Positions 47,175 through 57,370 of a stretch of 64,000 nt of DNA are shown piece after piece; positions within the stretch are counted from its first letter, which is position 1; each line of letters opens with the position of its first letter. A program made the position numbers and the translations under genes. The notes beneath the pieces were generated by a model, which was not told the DNA's origin, searched no databases, and worked only from the letters and a program-made list of their open reading frames with translations. Origin of the DNA: Methanospirillum stamsii (GTDB lineage Archaea; Halobacteriota; Methanomicrobia; Methanomicrobiales; Methanospirillaceae); contig NZ_QGMZ01000019.1 of the NCBI RefSeq assembly GCF_003173335.1, forward strand, positions 1 to 64,000. The letters run 5' to 3'.

Positions 47175-48728
47175 TCATGATCCAACAATCCAGGAGTCAA
47201 TATTCCGTGTCTTCGGGTTGAAAATTATCCCTATCTCGATTATCTTCCGGGAATCTTTCCGATATTTCTCTGCATAGCCACGGTTTTGTATCTGCTTAAG
47301 AGGATTTTGAATCCCGGTTTTTTCAGGTAGACCTACCTTAAACTCAAATATCCAGATAAAATCAGATGTTTTAACCGTAAGATCAATCCGGCCCCTGTTT
47401 GTTGTATCTTCGGGAATTACCTCAAACCCAAGACTTGCCATAAGTGAATACACCAGGCCGGACCAGTATCCCTCGAACTTTGACAAGGAATTATTCCTAT
47501 ACCAATCATGGGGAATCGAAGCAAAAAAAGCCTGAAGCTTGTGATGCAATCCGTCAATATCACCTAAAATCAGTATCTTTCGAATATCCAGGTTTGAAAG
47601 AGGTTCATTATCCGTTTTCAGGAGCGAAAGAATGCTCCTGTTGAATGATTCTTTCACCTCCCGGTTTGGAAATCCAAGAGTATACCAGGTACCCTCTTCC
47701 GGATTGCTCCTCCATGATGTGATCGTAAGATACCCTGCCTGGAAGAGAAGGGTTTCAAGACGGATATGATCAGGATCAAATGATCCCAGCAGGTCATCAC
47801 TCGCAATAAGGCCCTCATATTCAGCCGGAACTCTCGGATTTGCCTGCCATAAACTGATTAGAAATGAAGGGGTTCCGGTTTCGAACCAATAGGGTTTAAA
47901 AAGACCTGAATCAAAATACAGAAGAATATCAAAGGGATTGTACACCGACTCACCGGTCCAGGAATACCCATCATACCATTCACGAACCAATTCAGAGTTT
48001 TTTTCTGCGTACCATGATGAGAAGTTCTTTCGGAGATCTTCCTTTGTATATCCACAAATAGACGAATACCTGCTATCAAGAGTAATATCCTTGAGATTAT
48101 TCAACCCGGAGAATATGCCTGTTCTGACAAATTTCGACACCCCGGTTAGAAAAACAAACCGGATATGAGAATCTAGAGGTTTTATGACACCATAAAAATC
48201 CCGAAGAATATCACGCATTTCAGCCGCTTTTGATGGATGATTAAGGACATCGAGGATTGGTTTGTCATATTCATCAACCAGGATGACTACCTGCTGGCCG
48301 GTTTGTGCATGAATGTGCCTTACTATTGCAGCAAAACGACCCCCGGGTGATGACTCATGAGGGAAACATTTCCACTCCCGGGCCCATGATGTAAGAAATT
48401 CATCTATTCCTGCTTTAAGCTCATCTCCGGATCGGGGAGACGAGAATGACCAGTCAATCTTCAGGACAGGATTCTTACGGTTCCAGTCCCAGGCAGCAAT
48501 AGGGGTATCCAGGAACAATCCTGAGAATAAATCACGACGTCCCAAAAAAGCACAATGCAATGTGTCAATCAGAAGACTCTTGCCAAATCGACGGGGACGG
48601 GAAAGAAAATAATATTTTCCTGACTGGATTAGTGAATGTAAGAGCGGTGTTTTATCAACATAAACATACCCACCGGTTCTCATTTCAACAAAAGACTGGA
48701 TACCGATGGGAAGTTTCAGATTTGACAT
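47175..48728 (-). CDS. AAA-ATPase with C-terminal PD-(D/E)xK nuclease domain
   Basis: A 517-residue protein of the AAA-ATPase-like/PDDEXK family that is widespread and multi-copy in Methanospirillum-like archaea and Bacteroidetes. It has the N-terminal IGIQSF and YVDKTPLL region, the Walker A motif RPRRFGKS (Lys50), and a Walker B-type strand VVILVDEYDKP. The C-terminal nuclease-like fold has Asp449...Glu462-x-Lys464 (GRIDL, FEFK). It may act in defence or mobile-element biology; no function is established. It sits beside two decaying toxin-antitoxin modules. Confidence 0.82.
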   Translation of the reverse strand: MSNLKLPIGIQSFVEMRTGGYVYVDKTPLLHSLIQSGKYYFLSRPRRFGKSLLIDTLHCAFLGRRDLFSGLFLDTPIAAWDWNRKNPVLKIDWSFSSPRSGDELKAGIDEFLTSWAREWKCFPHESSPGGRFAAIVRHIHAQTGQQVVILVDEYDKPILDVLNHPSKAAEMRDILRDFYGVIKPLDSHIRFVFLTGVSKFVRTGIFSGLNNLKDITLDSRYSSICGYTKEDLRKNFSSWYAEKNSELVREWYDGYSWTGESVYNPFDILLYFDSGLFKPYWFETGTPSFLISLWQANPRVPAEYEGLIASDDLLGSFDPDHIRLETLLFQAGYLTITSWRSNPEEGTWYTLGFPNREVKESFNRSILSLLKTDNEPLSNLDIRKILILGDIDGLHHKLQAFFASIPHDWYRNNSLSKFEGYWSGLVYSLMASLGFEVIPEDTTNRGRIDLTVKTSDFIWIFEFKVGLPEKTGIQNPLKQIQNRGYAEKYRKDSRKIIEIGIIFNPKTRNIDSWIVGS

Positions 48729-50206: not shown

Positions 50207-51139
50207 ATGACAGGAGATTTGATACAGCTGAACCATATTGCTCTTTATGTTACCAACCTCGAGCGAAGTATCCGGTTTTATGAGGATATTCTGCATATGC
50301 AGGCTTTTGGTCCGGTCCATCTCGGATCGATATCCACCAGCGGGCAACTTATCGGAAAGGCAGTATCAGGTGGTCACGGACTTTTAAAAGGAATAATTGG
50401 TGGCATCTCATCCAGAGCAGTTAAAGACCAGTATACGGATATTGCTCTTCTTTCATCCACTGGCTCCGGATATGATATTCTCCTTATCCAGGAACGGCAT
50501 CCTGATTCAGATAATACAAAATCAGTTGATGGGAAGACGATATTCGGATTTTCATGTACACTCTCACCATCTGTTGATATGGAAATTCTTGGATGGGATC
50601 TTCATCAGGCAGAGGCAAATTTTGAATGGGGAGATCCCGGACTTGATGGAACGGTATTTACAGAGGATGCTCAGTATCACTCACTCTATGTCAAGGACCC
50701 GGAGGGAAGGATTATTGAATTAAAGCCGGACACAGAAAATACAAAAACTGGGGGTTTTATCACCAGTCTTGACTCAATAATCCTTCATGTGACCTATCCG
50801 GATATCAGTAAAAAGTACTACCTTGAAGAATTACACTTCCGGATTGATTCGGATTCAGGCAATAAAATTACAGGAAAACGAATTATTTCGCTAACTAACC
50901 AGTCAGGGAAAAGATGCGTAACCCTCTATGGTCTGACAACACCGGATGGAAATCCTGTGCAGACTGGAGGATATGGACTGGATCATTTTGCCCTCTCCGG
51001 TTTGGAGGAGAAGGGAGAGAAAAATTATCCTGGACTGGATTTAAAAATGGATCCGGATACCTTGCAGGAAAAAACAAATTCTTCCTATATCCATGATAGC
51101 GATGGATACTGGATTGAATGCTGCCAATATCAGGAATAA
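50207..51139 (+). CDS. Two-module glyoxalase/dioxygenase (VOC) superfamily protein
   Basis: A 310-residue protein with two tandem vicinal-oxygen-chelate halves, as in ring-cleaving dioxygenase-like families. Metal ligand candidates are His10 (LNHIALYV), a glutamate in IIELKP, His in DHFALSG and a glutamate in WIECCQ. The substrate cannot be predicted. It lies between pgk and the Cas1-like gene on the same strand and starts 62 bp after pgk. Confidence 0.8.
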   Translation: MTGDLIQLNHIALYVTNLERSIRFYEDILHMQAFGPVHLGSISTSGQLIGKAVSGGHGLLKGIIGGISSRAVKDQYTDIALLSSTGSGYDILLIQERHPDSDNTKSVDGKTIFGFSCTLSPSVDMEILGWDLHQAEANFEWGDPGLDGTVFTEDAQYHSLYVKDPEGRIIELKPDTENTKTGGFITSLDSIILHVTYPDISKKYYLEELHFRIDSDSGNKITGKRIISLTNQSGKRCVTLYGLTTPDGNPVQTGGYGLDHFALSGLEEKGEKNYPGLDLKMDPDTLQEKTNSSYIHDSDGYWIECCQYQE

Positions 51140-51163: not shown

Positions 51164-52096
51164 ATGAAAACAGGAAACTGGAAAATTGTAGGCGGATTTG
51201 GTGCACACATCAAATCAAACCGGACAGAATTAATCATTCAGCATAAGGGAATAATAAAAGAAACTCCAATAAATGAAATCTCTCATTTGGTAATTTTTGG
51301 TGGCCACAACATCCAGACTTCCACGATTACCACTCTTATCAAGGAAGGAGTTTTCATCTCTTTTTGTGAATCTGATGGGGAACCGGTAGGGTATATGGCC
51401 CCTTATGATTATTCATCATTCAGGGAAATCCAGGAACTTCAGAAATCAGTTGCTCCATATTCATACGCATTTACCTGTGCTCTCGGATCCATCAGAACAA
51501 GAATTCTCACAATTGAAAAATATGCCGAAATATTCGGGCCGGATATCATTTATTCAGGTGAACTGGATCTTTTGTCAGGGTACAGTAAAGAACTGGAAAA
51601 TATGGTCCGGATTGAAGAACTTCGAAGAATCGAGAAGCTTGTTCGTGATATGTATTATGAAATAATCAGCAGGTTTATTGATCCATCCTTGCATTTTAAA
51701 AGAAGAACGGTTAGACCATATTCAGATCCGGTAAATGCAATACTGTCGTTTGGATACGGAATGCTTTCTTCTGCATTTACCCGGGCTGTTGTTGGGGGTT
51801 ATTTAGACCCATCAGCCGGATTTTTGAACAGAGGGAACCAGGCATTAGTGCAGGACCTCATTAATTGCTGGAAATGTGAAATGATTGATAAAGCAGCAAT
51901 AGAATTTATCAGATCCGACGATTTTAACGTAAAAGGATACGAAATTTCACACGGACGATGTATCCTGAAAGAGGATATAATTCAGCAGTTAATTACCATT
52001 TTTTCGAGTACCATCAACCCGGATCTCATTGATTCACAGGTGGAAAATCTTATTCAGGCATTAAAAGGAGAATCACAATTTTCAATTCTCCGATAA
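51164..52096 (+). CDS. cas1: Stand-alone Cas1 homologue, probably catalytically inactive
   Basis: A 310-residue Cas1-fold protein. The N-terminal beta domain (GGFGAHIKSNRTEL...INEISHLVIFGGHN) and helical C-terminal domain (DPVNAILSFGYGMLSSAFTRAVV, YLDPSAGFLN, ALVQDLINCWK) align by eye with Cas1. Glu157 keeps the first metal-ligand position. The invariant His of GFLH is Asn222, and the acidic residue of DLxE/D is Asn234; only Asp231 nearby remains. Loss of two of three ligands predicts no integrase activity. No CRISPR array, cas2 or other cas gene is present. It is 25 bp downstream of the VOC gene. Solo Cas1 families are known in archaea. Confidence 0.85.
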   Translation: MKTGNWKIVGGFGAHIKSNRTELIIQHKGIIKETPINEISHLVIFGGHNIQTSTITTLIKEGVFISFCESDGEPVGYMAPYDYSSFREIQELQKSVAPYSYAFTCALGSIRTRILTIEKYAEIFGPDIIYSGELDLLSGYSKELENMVRIEELRRIEKLVRDMYYEIISRFIDPSLHFKRRTVRPYSDPVNAILSFGYGMLSSAFTRAVVGGYLDPSAGFLNRGNQALVQDLINCWKCEMIDKAAIEFIRSDDFNVKGYEISHGRCILKEDIIQQLITIFSSTINPDLIDSQVENLIQALKGESQFSILR

Positions 52097-52303: not shown

Positions 52304-53659
52304 TTATATAAAAGAGGATATACAGGAGAGCAGTTCTGTTTCAAAACTCTTTGCAAACGCCTCATCTATTGATTCAACATATAATCTGACCAGTGGCTCG
52401 GTTCCTGATGGCCGGATGAGAGCCCAGGCATCTTTACGGTCGATTCGTATTCCATCAACCAGGTTCAGCGAGTCTTGAGCGAATTTTTCTTTAACGGCAG
52501 CAAGAATCTGTTCTGCATTCTTTGTATGGAATTTATGTTTAAGCATAACAGAAGGAGGAAGAGCATCAACAAGAGATGATAACGGCTGTTTTTTGTTTGC
52601 AAGGAGTATCACCATCATCGCTGCGGTCATTCCTCCATCCCTGCAGAACTGGTGATTCGGATAAATAAGCCCGCCATTTCCTTCACCGCCAAAAACCACC
52701 GGTTTTCCTTCTGAAAGAAGTGCCCTCATCCGACGTGCAACATAGATACTGCCAACAGCAGTGTAATCGACCATGCAGCCATGAGGAGAGATAACAGTTT
52801 CAATAAGCCGTGAGGTGCTGACCGGAGTTACCAGTACACCTTTTTTATTGGAACAGATATATTCGGCAACAAGAGCAAATTCCTTATTTTCCTCAACAAA
52901 CCGGCCTTTATCGTCAATGAATACTGCCCGATCAGCATCCCCGTCGTGAGCAACTCCGAATGCTGCACCGGTTGAAACAACCATGTCAGCCAGTGGAGCG
53001 AGCCCTTCTATGGAGGGTTCCGGGTCCCGGGCGGGGAAATTTCCATCAGGATAGGCATTGAGAGTAAAAACCTGACAACCGATTGACTTTAAAATTTCCG
53101 CGGTTGTCCGGAAAGCTGCACCACAACCAGGATCGATGACAACTTTCATCCCCTCCCCAATCTTCTCCGGAACTTTTTTGACGACTCCTTCGATATACTT
53201 TGTAACCAGGTCACCTTCAGGGATTATCACCCCGACATCCTTCCATTCTTTCAGATCAAAATTGTAAGAAAAGACACGTTCTTCTATCTCGATGGATGCT
53301 TCATCATCCATTTCAGTCCCATCTTTTTCGATAACCTTAACCCCATTATATTCACCCGGATTATGGGATGCAGTAATTACCACTCCGGCACTGTACCGGT
53401 TCATGACAATGTACTGAAGAGCGGGCGTTGGAAGAATTCCACAATCAATGACATCACAGCCTGTTGCCATAAGACCTGCTTTCATTGCATTAATTAATGC
53501 AGGCCCTGAGGTCCTGGTATCCATACCAACAGCAATAGTCCCAGGGCGCATTGACCCGACCGCCATTCCAATCTTCATAACAAGGTCCGGAGTAATCAGT
53601 TCGCCAACAATACCCCGGACTCCGTTTGTTCCAAATAATTGCTTCTTCTTTTCAGACAT
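52304..53659 (-). CDS. glmM: Phosphoglucosamine mutase / phosphomannomutase
   Basis: An alpha-D-phosphohexomutase of 451 residues. The phosphoserine loop is TASHNP (Ser98). The metal loop is HDGDADR, the sugar-binding loop GGEGNGG and the phosphate-binding loop RPSGTEP; all four domains are complete. In methanogens these enzymes interconvert glucosamine-, glucose- or mannose-6- and -1-phosphates for UDP-GlcNAc and surface glycans. GlmM is the best fit, but PMM/PGM activity cannot be excluded. Its start overlaps the stop of the upstream gene by one base (TAATG). Confidence 0.88.
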   Translation of the reverse strand: MSEKKKQLFGTNGVRGIVGELITPDLVMKIGMAVGSMRPGTIAVGMDTRTSGPALINAMKAGLMATGCDVIDCGILPTPALQYIVMNRYSAGVVITASHNPGEYNGVKVIEKDGTEMDDEASIEIEERVFSYNFDLKEWKDVGVIIPEGDLVTKYIEGVVKKVPEKIGEGMKVVIDPGCGAAFRTTAEILKSIGCQVFTLNAYPDGNFPARDPEPSIEGLAPLADMVVSTGAAFGVAHDGDADRAVFIDDKGRFVEENKEFALVAEYICSNKKGVLVTPVSTSRLIETVISPHGCMVDYTAVGSIYVARRMRALLSEGKPVVFGGEGNGGLIYPNHQFCRDGGMTAAMMVILLANKKQPLSSLVDALPPSVMLKHKFHTKNAEQILAAVKEKFAQDSLNLVDGIRIDRKDAWALIRPSGTEPLVRLYVESIDEAFAKSFETELLSCISSFI

Positions 53660-54270
53660 TAGGCATCTTGTGTTAAATCATCAGGATTAAGACCTGGATT
53701 TTCTATCTGCTCTTCTTCTGGTTGAGATTCGGATTTCTTTCTTTTTTCCTGTTTTTCTTTTAACTGTTCCTCACGAATTTTCAGGAGACGAGATGATGCA
53801 AGAGCAACATGGCGCATTACCTCAGTAACGCGATCTTCTATCTCTATTTCATCATCGACCTCAATAGAAGTACTCTCAATCTCCATGAGAAACCGGGCTA
53901 CTTCACTAACCTCGAATAATAAATCATCCAGTTCTTCCGGGGTGTAAAAACCACACATTGCCCCGTACAAAAAAGTAGCTCCTGCTTTACTGACTTTCTT
54001 TTTAAAAGAACTCCGGGCCTGGTTTACTGCCTGCGGAGTATACGTTCCGGTCATAAATGGGACCAGTTCAGGAAGATTTTTCCCGATATATGTCATTTCA
54101 GCACCGGATGAAGTCTGAAAATCTGAACATAACCTGGAGATTGCCCATTCCCTGGCAGTAATGAATGTCCTCTTCCGAAGAAACTGGTTTACCTGGGAGT
54201 ATGATGCACCGTCAACCTTCCTGAACTTGTGATACTTTGTTGGATCCCGTGAACGGAATGAAGTTGACAT
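53659..54270 (-). CDS. Conserved euryarchaeal protein (DUF5806-like)
   Basis: A 203-residue soluble protein of unknown function. The segment KYHKFRKVDGASYSQVNQF, then ITAREWAISRLCSDF and PQAVNQARSSFKKKVSKAG, resembles DUF5806, a family I associate with halophiles and methanogens. The last 40 residues are Lys/Glu-rich and probably disordered. It overlaps glmM by one base, so the two are co-translated and a role linked to envelope sugar synthesis is possible but unproven. Confidence 0.72.
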   Translation of the reverse strand: MSTSFRSRDPTKYHKFRKVDGASYSQVNQFLRKRTFITAREWAISRLCSDFQTSSGAEMTYIGKNLPELVPFMTGTYTPQAVNQARSSFKKKVSKAGATFLYGAMCGFYTPEELDDLLFEVSEVARFLMEIESTSIEVDDEIEIEDRVTEVMRHVALASSRLLKIREEQLKEKQEKRKKSESQPEEEQIENPGLNPDDLTQDA

Positions 54271-54465: not shown

Positions 54466-56286
54466 TCAGTTTTTATCTTCAGTATATCCTCCATATCCAA
54501 CTCTTATCTCAAATCGTGCTCCCTTTCCTCCTTCTCCGGTTTCATGGATAGTAATACCAGTAATCGATAGGATCTCTCTGACAAGGAAAAGACCAAGGCC
54601 GGTATTACTTCCATATCCCCGTTCAAATACTGTTTCTTTCAGGTCATCAGGAATCCCGATGCCATCATCTTCACACAAAATACAGACGAAATCGCCATCA
54701 TGATAGTAGGAAAAACGGATGAGCGATAAAAATTCACCACCATGACGGAGAGCATTGTCAATAAGATTGAAAAAAACCCGTTCCAAAAGTGGATCAGCAT
54801 AGATAATAAGCCCGTATAATTCATTAACAATCCTGACTTTTTCTGGAATACCAATTTCCGAAACTCTCTGAACAAGAGTTCCAACATCCTTCCACTCCGG
54901 CGAGTGGATACCAAGGTCCTGGTATACACGGGAAAATTCTATCTGGTCCTGAATTAACCTGGCAGCATCATTAATAATACTGATAATCTTCTTCGTTTCC
55001 AGATCATCATCTGGTTTTCCCAGAAGAGGTACAAGACCCAGGATTACAGAAACACGATTTCGAATGTCATGCCGTGTAATACTGGAAAGGAGATTTAATT
55101 TTTCATTCGTCCGGATTAATGCCCGTTCCGCCATAATCCGGGGAGTGATATCACGCATGCTCTGAATAGCCCCGATGATCTGACCCTTTGAATCATACAA
55201 AGGACCAGCCATGGATGAGAAATGTTTTCCCCCTTTGCCCATCCGGGGAAAAGACTCTTCAATAAATAAGGAATCACCGACTCTGCTCACATCCGGAAAA
55301 AACTCCATGACTGCAGTTTCTTTGTTAAGAACAGCATTAAGCAGCATTGGCCTTTTTTCCCCATAAAAGGGTATGGCGTACTCATATTTTCCCCGGCCGA
55401 TGATATCAGAGTCAGGAATCCCTGTGAGTATCTCCATGGCATGGTTCCAGAAAATGACCCATCCATCCTTATCAACGACAAACGTCGCATCAGGAAGACG
55501 AGAGATGACATCCCGGAGTTGACGCGCTGATTCGCGGAGAGCTCCACTCTCAACCACCGCCTTCCAGGCAGTCCGCTGCCCGGTTATATCCTGCACATTA
55601 AGTGACCAGAATGCATTGACTTTTGTTCTTCCGGAAAGAATCGTCAGGTTATGAAATGCTGGAAATATGCTCCCATCCTGCCTTACATGATCTAACTCAA
55701 ATGTGGTGTGTCCGGAATGTAGAGCTTTTTCCAGAAATGGAATGAATTGTTTATCAGGATAACCGGAAACTGAGGAAAATGGACTCCTCCCAATGAACCA
55801 TTCCGGCTCAGTTCCATGCATTGATGAATAGGCAGTATTCACATAATCGACAACATCACCTGTCCCTGTCACAATACCGGTACTGGTATTTTCAACAATA
55901 TTGGCCAGTTTTTGAAGTGATGTCTCAAATTTTTTTCTTTCAGATATATCTATTGCAAATCCACGAAAACCAATAATGTCAGTTCCGGTCCTGATAGGTG
56001 CAGCATATATAACCAGGGGGAATATATCACCATCCTTCGTAAGACCGGAATATTCCTTCCCGCTTATGGTTTTACCATCCCGGATCATCTGAAGGGACGA
56101 TAAAAACAACTGATGATCCTCTGAATCGATAAGGTTTAAAATATGAAGACCTGATTCAAAATCTGTGCTGGAATACCCGGAGATTTCAAACCCCATCTGA
56201 TTTAGAAAGGTAATATTTCCTTTCATATCACATTCAAACACAAATTCCGGAAGGAGGTCTGCAAGTTCCCGGTATTTTTTTTTCAC
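54466..56286 (-). CDS. PAS sensor histidine kinase, C-terminal part of a split gene
   Basis: The 606-residue reading frame begins abruptly at a GTG inside the A9 run and continues the sensor encoded upstream in another frame. It holds three PAS modules (starting near KYRELADLLPEF, IVENTSTGIV and VISRLPDATFVV), an H-box in ITRHDIRNRV (His codon at 55069-55071), and a HATPase domain with NLIDNALRHG, EDDGIGIPD and GLGLFLV. As a stand-alone protein it would lack the membrane sensor. Deleting one A from the run at 56275-56283 fuses it to the upstream CHASE4 part as a 967-residue kinase. Confidence 0.85.
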   Translation of the reverse strand: MKKKYRELADLLPEFVFECDMKGNITFLNQMGFEISGYSSTDFESGLHILNLIDSEDHQLFLSSLQMIRDGKTISGKEYSGLTKDGDIFPLVIYAAPIRTGTDIIGFRGFAIDISERKKFETSLQKLANIVENTSTGIVTGTGDVVDYVNTAYSSMHGTEPEWFIGRSPFSSVSGYPDKQFIPFLEKALHSGHTTFELDHVRQDGSIFPAFHNLTILSGRTKVNAFWSLNVQDITGQRTAWKAVVESGALRESARQLRDVISRLPDATFVVDKDGWVIFWNHAMEILTGIPDSDIIGRGKYEYAIPFYGEKRPMLLNAVLNKETAVMEFFPDVSRVGDSLFIEESFPRMGKGGKHFSSMAGPLYDSKGQIIGAIQSMRDITPRIMAERALIRTNEKLNLLSSITRHDIRNRVSVILGLVPLLGKPDDDLETKKIISIINDAARLIQDQIEFSRVYQDLGIHSPEWKDVGTLVQRVSEIGIPEKVRIVNELYGLIIYADPLLERVFFNLIDNALRHGGEFLSLIRFSYYHDGDFVCILCEDDGIGIPDDLKETVFERGYGSNTGLGLFLVREILSITGITIHETGEGGKGARFEIRVGYGGYTEDKN

Positions 56287-57370
56287 TCTCGGTTAAAAGA
56301 AGAACATGTTCCTCCAGTTGTCTTCTTGACCGATTTAACTCCAGAAAAATGGGGTGAATTTCCTGTGCCAGCCTGCTGAATTCATCATCACCTTCCAGAA
56401 GTGATTCTGATGATTTTTTACGTTCACTTGACCGGATTTTTATCTGCTCAATAAGAGTATGTAACCGGGACAGGACCAGCCGGTCAATCATTACCAGGGA
56501 TACCAGGATAACGACAAGGCCCAGAGCCAGCAGAATAACAATATAAATAAATATTGTGGATTTTCCCCGGTTGATAATATCCCTTTGAATGAGAACATCT
56601 AATTTAAGAAAACCATTGGAATCTATCGTTGGGATAAGGGTTGATCCGGTAATATTCGTGTCAGATAATGGAACTACAGTAATACGAGTCCCATCTTCCA
56701 TTGTTAAAGGCTTGGAAGCAGGCAGAGATATCACCGGTTCAGACTGCCAATTTATCGAGAGAGAGAGATCAGAGATATCCGAAAGGGTATTGATCTTTTC
56801 ATCATCAAGATATTCTCCAAAAATCAGGGTCCCTCCGGAAGGCCCCTCATATATGCTGGTAATAACCGGTTGGGCGACAATAAAAGAGTCACCTTCCGGG
56901 AGATGAATAAATCCGGAATGAGTATCCAGAATTGAATCAAAGGATAATAACCCGGGTATTGAAAGGATTTTTGTGACAGCATCAGGAGGCAGGGGCCCCA
57001 GGGATTCTTCAGAAACATTTTTCAACGCAGAATATTTGACTGAATTATCACTACGCAGATAAATAACGAAATCTATCCCGATGTTATGTATCGATTCGTA
57101 ATTTATATTGCGTTCAATATATGCATCGTTTTTATCCCTTACAAAATCGTACGTCTCATCCCATCTGGACCAGTCTGTAGTTACTGCAATAAACTGTTGA
57201 TTTTCATAATCAAGCATTTTGAGACTTTTCATCATCTTCTGAGTTACATCATCCTGCTCAAACTGAGCATAACTTTGAGTTAATAGGGTATTAGAAAAAA
57301 GAATGATGATGAAAATGCCACCAAGGAGAGTAAGCCCGATTATTAAGAATGTTTTTATCCGCAGATCCAT
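56234..57370 (-). CDS. CHASE4/HAMP sensor, N-terminal part of a split kinase
   Basis: A membrane sensor module ending at a frameshift. The first membrane helix is about 7-29 and the second about 273-295. Between them lies an extracytoplasmic CHASE4 domain with the DWSRWDETYDF signature (66-76). A HAMP and coiled-coil segment leads to LLLTESEKK at 357-365. After the A9 run the frame reads IPGTCRPPSG and stops, giving 378 residues. With eight A residues the sequence would continue KKYRELADLLPEF into the first PAS domain of the downstream frame. It is probably a frameshifted or phase-variable kinase; sequencing error is possible. Confidence 0.83.
   Translation of the reverse strand: MDLRIKTFLIIGLTLLGGIFIIILFSNTLLTQSYAQFEQDDVTQKMMKSLKMLDYENQQFIAVTTDWSRWDETYDFVRDKNDAYIERNINYESIHNIGIDFVIYLRSDNSVKYSALKNVSEESLGPLPPDAVTKILSIPGLLSFDSILDTHSGFIHLPEGDSFIVAQPVITSIYEGPSGGTLIFGEYLDDEKINTLSDISDLSLSINWQSEPVISLPASKPLTMEDGTRITVVPLSDTNITGSTLIPTIDSNGFLKLDVLIQRDIINRGKSTIFIYIVILLALGLVVILVSLVMIDRLVLSRLHTLIEQIKIRSSERKKSSESLLEGDDEFSRLAQEIHPIFLELNRSRRQLEEHVLLLTESEKKIPGTCRPPSGICV

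Follow-up and report, generated by a model that had tools for sequence, protein, structure and literature searches.

The gene at positions 51164–52096 on the forward strand of the window (the 64-kb stretch of Methanospirillum stamsii DNA analysed here) encodes a 310-residue protein of the family Cas1-solo group 1. Cas1 is known as the integrase of CRISPR systems and casposons. The solo protein has the Cas1 fold without the Cas1 catalytic set. It is retained across the order Methanomicrobiales under purifying selection, independently of Cas2 and of CRISPR Cas1, and it carries a new set of invariant residues.

We hypothesise that a Methanomicrobiales ancestor captured a Cas1 as an ordinary chromosomal gene, and that its product, having lost the integrase/nuclease centre, was retained for another household role, independent of CRISPR and Cas2. 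The protein, a two-domain Cas1 body that probably still dimerises, would then act as a non-catalytic scaffold. Its fixed polar set (H48, E133, R155, Y165, E166, R170, K/R179–R181, R265 and C266) would hold a partner, which may be a nucleic acid bound through an arginine loop or a protein, and it would neither cut nor join DNA. On the sequence evidence we give this reading a probability of about three in four. Much more tentatively, Cas1 may have been domesticated once, in the Methanomicrobiales ancestor, to give a core protein independent of CRISPR whose binding or catalytic site is new and unlike that of any characterised Cas1.

A Cas1 paralogue that lost the integrase centre yet is near-universal and strongly constrained in a whole order would show that the fold can be put to another cellular use. 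For a family so far dismissed as vestigial, this raises a directly testable question: what the protein binds or acts upon, and what its loss costs the cell.

The solo gene and the fold of its product

The open reading frame is complete, with an ATG start, and is full length with clean coding, as the initial annotation described it. Its product matches PF01867 with 172 bits over profile positions 5–281 of 283, and TIGR00287 with 127 bits (cut-off 71.7). The AlphaFold model has a pLDDT of 92.5 and a pTM of 0.91. In a Foldseek search with this model the best 50 PDB matches are all Cas1 or casposase chains, with E-values down to 8.7e-19 and best TM-scores of 0.85–0.86. Both the profile match and the fold span the full length of the protein, which places it in the Cas1 superfamily (PF01867 fold) and bears out the earlier claim that the whole Cas1 fold is kept.

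Distribution and family membership

The solo gene is found in 139 of the 149 nearest relatives and in 105 of the 106 that are of good quality; the threshold used for this count also admits CRISPR Cas1, and the best match in each listed genome lies far above CRISPR Cas1. Across the whole class it is present in 133 of 135 good-quality genomes. No match was found in the other two (G137 and G214), which comprise about 190 and about 70 contigs respectively, so an assembly gap is a possible cause in both. When six genomes lacking a match were searched again with a profile, only a 25-residue fragment was recovered, in one of them.

In a sample of 394 genomes from the phylum all 83 strong matches lie within Methanomicrobiales, and no comparable match was found outside that order. 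The 80 loci on GTDB contigs with organism titles all belong to Methanomicrobiales where the title names a group below phylum; genera among them include Methanospirillum, Methanoregula, Methanoculleus, Methanolinea and Methanogenium. No viral copy was found in IMG/VR, and a virus-borne gene was rejected on this ground.

The solo clade is separated from CRISPR Cas1 with 100% SH-aLRT support in a tree of solo and CRISPR Cas1 proteins, from which casposon sequences were left out. Presence throughout the order and shared synteny fit vertical descent, as judged from distribution and gene order. Restriction to Methanomicrobiales, away from CRISPR loci, is the published distribution of Cas1-solo group 1, and the window protein therefore belongs to that family.

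Catalytic positions

The catalytic set of the Cas1 endonuclease/integrase is E-H-D-E/D, and in 22 diverse CRISPR Cas1 proteins of Methanomicrobiales E, H, D and E are invariant at the aligned positions. The window protein has an incomplete set. The residues that align to E, H, D and E/D are E157 (codon GAG, 51632–51634), N222 (AAC, 51827–51829), D231 (51854–51856) and N234 (AAT, 51863–51865), all on the forward strand. The four positions were placed in alignments of 139 orthologues and the 22 CRISPR Cas1 proteins, with the codons read at 157, 222 and 234. The alignment agrees with the initial annotation that two of three metal ligands are lost, the histidine having become Asn222 and the acidic residue Asn234. 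A fourth conserved acid, D231, which it did not mention, is Asp in 139 of 139 orthologues.

Among the orthologues column 157 holds H in 79, S in 17, E in 12, F in 11, Y in 6, D in 5 and other residues in 9, and column 222 holds H in 76, N in 20, S in 15, Y in 10 and others in 18. Column 234 has an acid in 122 of 139 (E in 66, D in 56), the rest being N in 13, A in 3 and G in 1. The earlier statement that Glu157 is kept is misleading, as this position is mostly His in the family. Parsimony gives His as the ancestral state of position 157 in the solo clade, although support for the root is weak (61%); the Glu157 of the window protein is thus more likely to have arisen secondarily than to be a ligand kept from the ancestor.

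Within the genus Methanospirillum all 12 proteins have N234 and an acid at 157, and 11 have N222. The pattern is acid-N-D-N in 11 of the 12 and acid-S-D-N in the other. Conservation of the Asn residues in orthologues, which had been proposed as a sign of a repurposed protein, is thus seen at the level of the genus.

Compared with CRISPR Cas1, 132 of 139 orthologues have a 222–231 span that is shorter by three residues. The sequence alignment contains no candidate for a replacement His or Glu ligand elsewhere in the site, and an intact His/Glu at another place in the site was rejected as improbable for lack of such a substitute.

Among the 139 proteins one alone (L042, G026:C333:7981-8883) carries a complete E-H-D-E set. 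E-N/K-D-E is found in its three closest relatives, so that L042 either regained the set or is a late survivor.

A new set of fixed residues

Changes in each column were counted on a tree built without the catalytic columns. There are about 21 changes at position 157, 29 at 222 and 20 at 234, and the median over all columns is 27; 157 lies at the 38th and 222 at the 55th percentile of all columns. No changes are seen at H48, E133, R155, Y165, E166, R170, D231 and C266, and D242 is conserved in every solo copy.

Most or all of 21 CRISPR Cas1 proteins compared from the same order have M at position 48, G at 155, F at 165, D/E at 170, G/A at 265 and V/I at 266. Columns 48, 155, 165, 170 and 266, unchanged in the solo group, thus hold other residues in the compared CRISPR Cas1. 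Alignments of the helix stretch 155–170 (51626–51673, forward strand) show the invariant R155, Y165, E166 and R170, which are mostly different in CRISPR Cas1. The pair R265–C266 (51956–51961, forward strand) is likewise specific to the solo group, with C266 in 139 of 139 and R265 in 137 of 139 aligned orthologues and other residues in CRISPR Cas1. Positions 157 and 222 vary freely and solo-specific residues are unchanged: the former active site has been freed from constraint, and another residue set has become fixed.

Such a set might also form the active site of a new enzyme, in which H48, E133, R155, E166, R170 and C266 would act together with D231/D242 on the Cas1 fold. The many invariant polar residues (His, Cys, Glu and Arg) that are absent from CRISPR Cas1 would suit this, as would the presence of D231 and D242 in every solo copy. 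However, R155, E166 and R170 are spaced as one face of a helix and may simply form salt bridges, and no neighbouring gene hints at a substrate. We regard a new enzyme as unlikely, and favour a fixed surface that would hold a partner on a non-catalytic scaffold.

Charge and possible nucleic-acid contact

The solo proteins are acidic, with a median pI of 6.2 and a net charge of -5, whereas most CRISPR Cas1 proteins of the order are basic (pI 8.7, net charge about +4 to +6). An exception is the near-neutral CRISPR Cas1 (pI 6.8) encoded in the window's own genome. In CRISPR Cas1, 14 columns are mostly basic; the solo group has lost most of them but retains R181 and K/R237. The acidic make-up and the loss of these columns weaken the case for a nucleic-acid role.

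The solo group has (nearly) fixed Arg/Lys of its own at positions 113, 155, 170, 179, 180 and 265. The conserved loop K179, R180 and R181 (51698–51706, forward strand) appears, from its spacing, to take the place of the casposase loop in which R191 and R192 contact target DNA bases (PMC6977970). R181 of the solo protein probably corresponds to casposase R191, since both lie 41 residues from the catalytic His position. With the retained R181 and K/R237 and the new Arg/Lys residues, this equivalence makes DNA binding possible, but it is not the obvious default.

Alternatively, the old centre might survive with altered metal ligands, as a nuclease or integrase that uses H157-H222-D231-E/D234 in many members and acid157-N-D-N in Methanospirillum. 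All four residues of the former combination occur together in 47 of 139 orthologues; L042 with its full set and the acid at 157 throughout Methanospirillum also fit. The acid at 234, the Asp at 231 in all members and these 47 proteins make it conceivable that some solo members could still bind metal. Against catalysis stand the variation of columns 157 and 222 at the rate of an average column, the shortened 222–231 span and the acidic nature of the protein. In addition, alanine at any of the four catalytic positions of Escherichia coli Cas1 abolishes its nuclease activity (PMC4046053). We consider an altered-ligand nuclease quite improbable.

Relation to CRISPR

An exact-repeat scan found no CRISPR array in the 64-kb window, and a gene search found no further cas1 and no cas2 there, in agreement with the initial annotation. 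The solo gene has neither the adjacent cas2 nor the array that mark CRISPR adaptation. The search of the whole genome for a CRISPR system that had been suggested was run, and an intact system was found outside the window, on contig C36, where type III genes occur with an intact cas1, cas2 and two arrays. This type III CRISPR-Cas locus (G000:C36, L104:5244-19730) also includes Cas10-like and RAMP-like genes, and the repeats of its two arrays are nearly identical, with a one-base difference in most copies.

In 30 of 99 good-quality genomes the solo gene is the only Cas1 match and no Cas2 is present, and retention of the gene is therefore independent of CRISPR adaptation. Cas2 is absent from 45 of the 99, and a hidden Cas2 partner of the solo protein was rejected on this basis.

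This independence counts against a regulator of host Cas1, for example one that forms inactive mixed dimers with CRISPR Cas1 and so controls adaptation. The fold is shared and the window's genome does have a CRISPR Cas1, but the solo gene persists in the 30 genomes with no other Cas1 and no Cas2, and in the neighbourhoods examined it is surrounded by housekeeping genes and not by CRISPR loci. Interference with host Cas1, one of the roles first proposed for the protein, is accordingly very unlikely.

Genomic neighbourhood

A glyoxalase-like (VOC) gene (50207–51139, forward strand) ends 24 bp upstream of the solo gene; neighbourhood comparison shows it as a neighbour in the genus Methanospirillum only. 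In this genus phosphoglycerate kinase and VOC genes lie upstream on the same strand as the solo gene. Downstream in the window are a convergent gene of the phosphoglucomutase/phosphomannomutase family (52304–53659, reverse strand) and a DUF5806 gene (53659–54270, reverse strand), both in order-wide synteny. Within six genes of the solo gene a sugar-phosphate mutase is found in 47 and DUF5806 in 48 of 77 loci, and a convergent acylphosphatase gene lies directly downstream in 49 of the 77. The neighbours are housekeeping genes in old synteny and give no direct clue to function. A function based on an operon was rejected, as these genes are unrelated and differ between genera.

A casposon origin at the locus was also rejected. 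There are no polB neighbours, as had been noted in the absence of casposon genes from the window, and no terminal repeats flanking the solo gene were seen in the region 48.7–54.5 kb. The broken active site and housekeeping neighbours likewise separate the protein from a casposase.

Three further genes were seen in these neighbourhoods. A PAS/histidine-kinase gene in the window (54466–57370, reverse strand) consists of two overlapping open reading frames of 606 and 378 residues. In relatives L033–L037 the same kinase is one open reading frame of about 966–972 residues, and the two window frames cover both halves; the split may reflect a frameshift, a genuine break in the gene or an error of assembly. 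Near the solo gene, about half of the examined loci encode a conserved protein of about 1190 residues (L105:9170-12739 and homologues) with no clear Pfam family and only weak TPR similarity; it was not seen beside the solo gene in Methanospirillum. The window also encodes an AAA-ATPase_like plus PDDEXK_9 protein (47175–48728, reverse strand), and similar genes also lie upstream of pgk in two relatives (L034 and L038).

Selection on the solo gene

All 139 collected orthologues are open and full length. The dN/dS check proposed in the initial annotation gives values of 0.054–0.33, with a median of 0.152, for 62 non-independent pairs with dS of 0.1–0.6, which is purifying selection. A set of 444 pairs with dS up to 1.3 has a plain median of 0.40; this value was left unused because synonymous sites are near saturation there. 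Pairs that include the window gene have dN of 0.20–0.21 and dS above 2, where synonymous sites are saturated, so the estimate for the window gene rests on its relatives. In the tree the end branch of the window gene is 0.21, against a median end branch of 0.22.

These values, with the Asn residues conserved in the genus, uphold the earlier view of a retained, catalytically compromised stand-alone Cas1 under selection. The companion view, that decay is just as likely, is not borne out, given the low dN/dS, the unbroken orthologues and the near-universal presence in the order. The reading as a CRISPR or casposon Cas1 in decay has in its favour the missing catalytic residues and a later published description of these Cas1-solo proteins as probably vestigial (PMC9755687), but the selection data and order-wide invariant residues already contradict it, as far as can be judged at the sequence level, and leave it scarcely tenable.

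Comparison with known systems

Cas1-solo group 1 of Methanomicrobiales was described by Makarova in 2013, as cited by Krupovic in 2014 (PMC4046053). The latter paper reports no member with a full active site and no sign of horizontal transfer, and sets the group aside. The initial annotation implied that a retained inactive form had yet to be described; on the account in that paper the group and its broken site were published in 2013–2014. A search of the literature returned nothing on function or expression of the group. The window protein shares with it the order, the stand-alone gene and the incomplete active site. Where published accounts present the group as inactive or vestigial, we find that it is near-universal, evolves under purifying selection and has a set of invariant residues that sets it apart. 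The E-H-D-E set of L042 is a small exception to the absence of full sites stated there.

The casposases (Cas1-solo group 2) also have the Cas1 fold without CRISPR, and the Methanosarcina mazei casposase (PDB 6opm, PMC6977970) matches the window protein with a TM-score of 0.86. Casposases keep their active site (E162/H232/E247 in M. mazei, PMC6977970), which the window protein does not. They lie in mobile elements with polB, and those of family 2 carry a C-terminal HTH, neither of which was seen for the window's solo gene and its product.

CRISPR Cas1 proteins of Methanomicrobiales, for example G000:C36:9769-10770, share the fold and the core residues R181, D188, N191, D231 and D242 with the solo protein. 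They differ in having E, H, D and E in all proteins compared, in being mostly basic and in forming a separate clade. The window protein is of a kind already described; what is new is evidence for constraint on it as a core protein, with invariant residues of its own.
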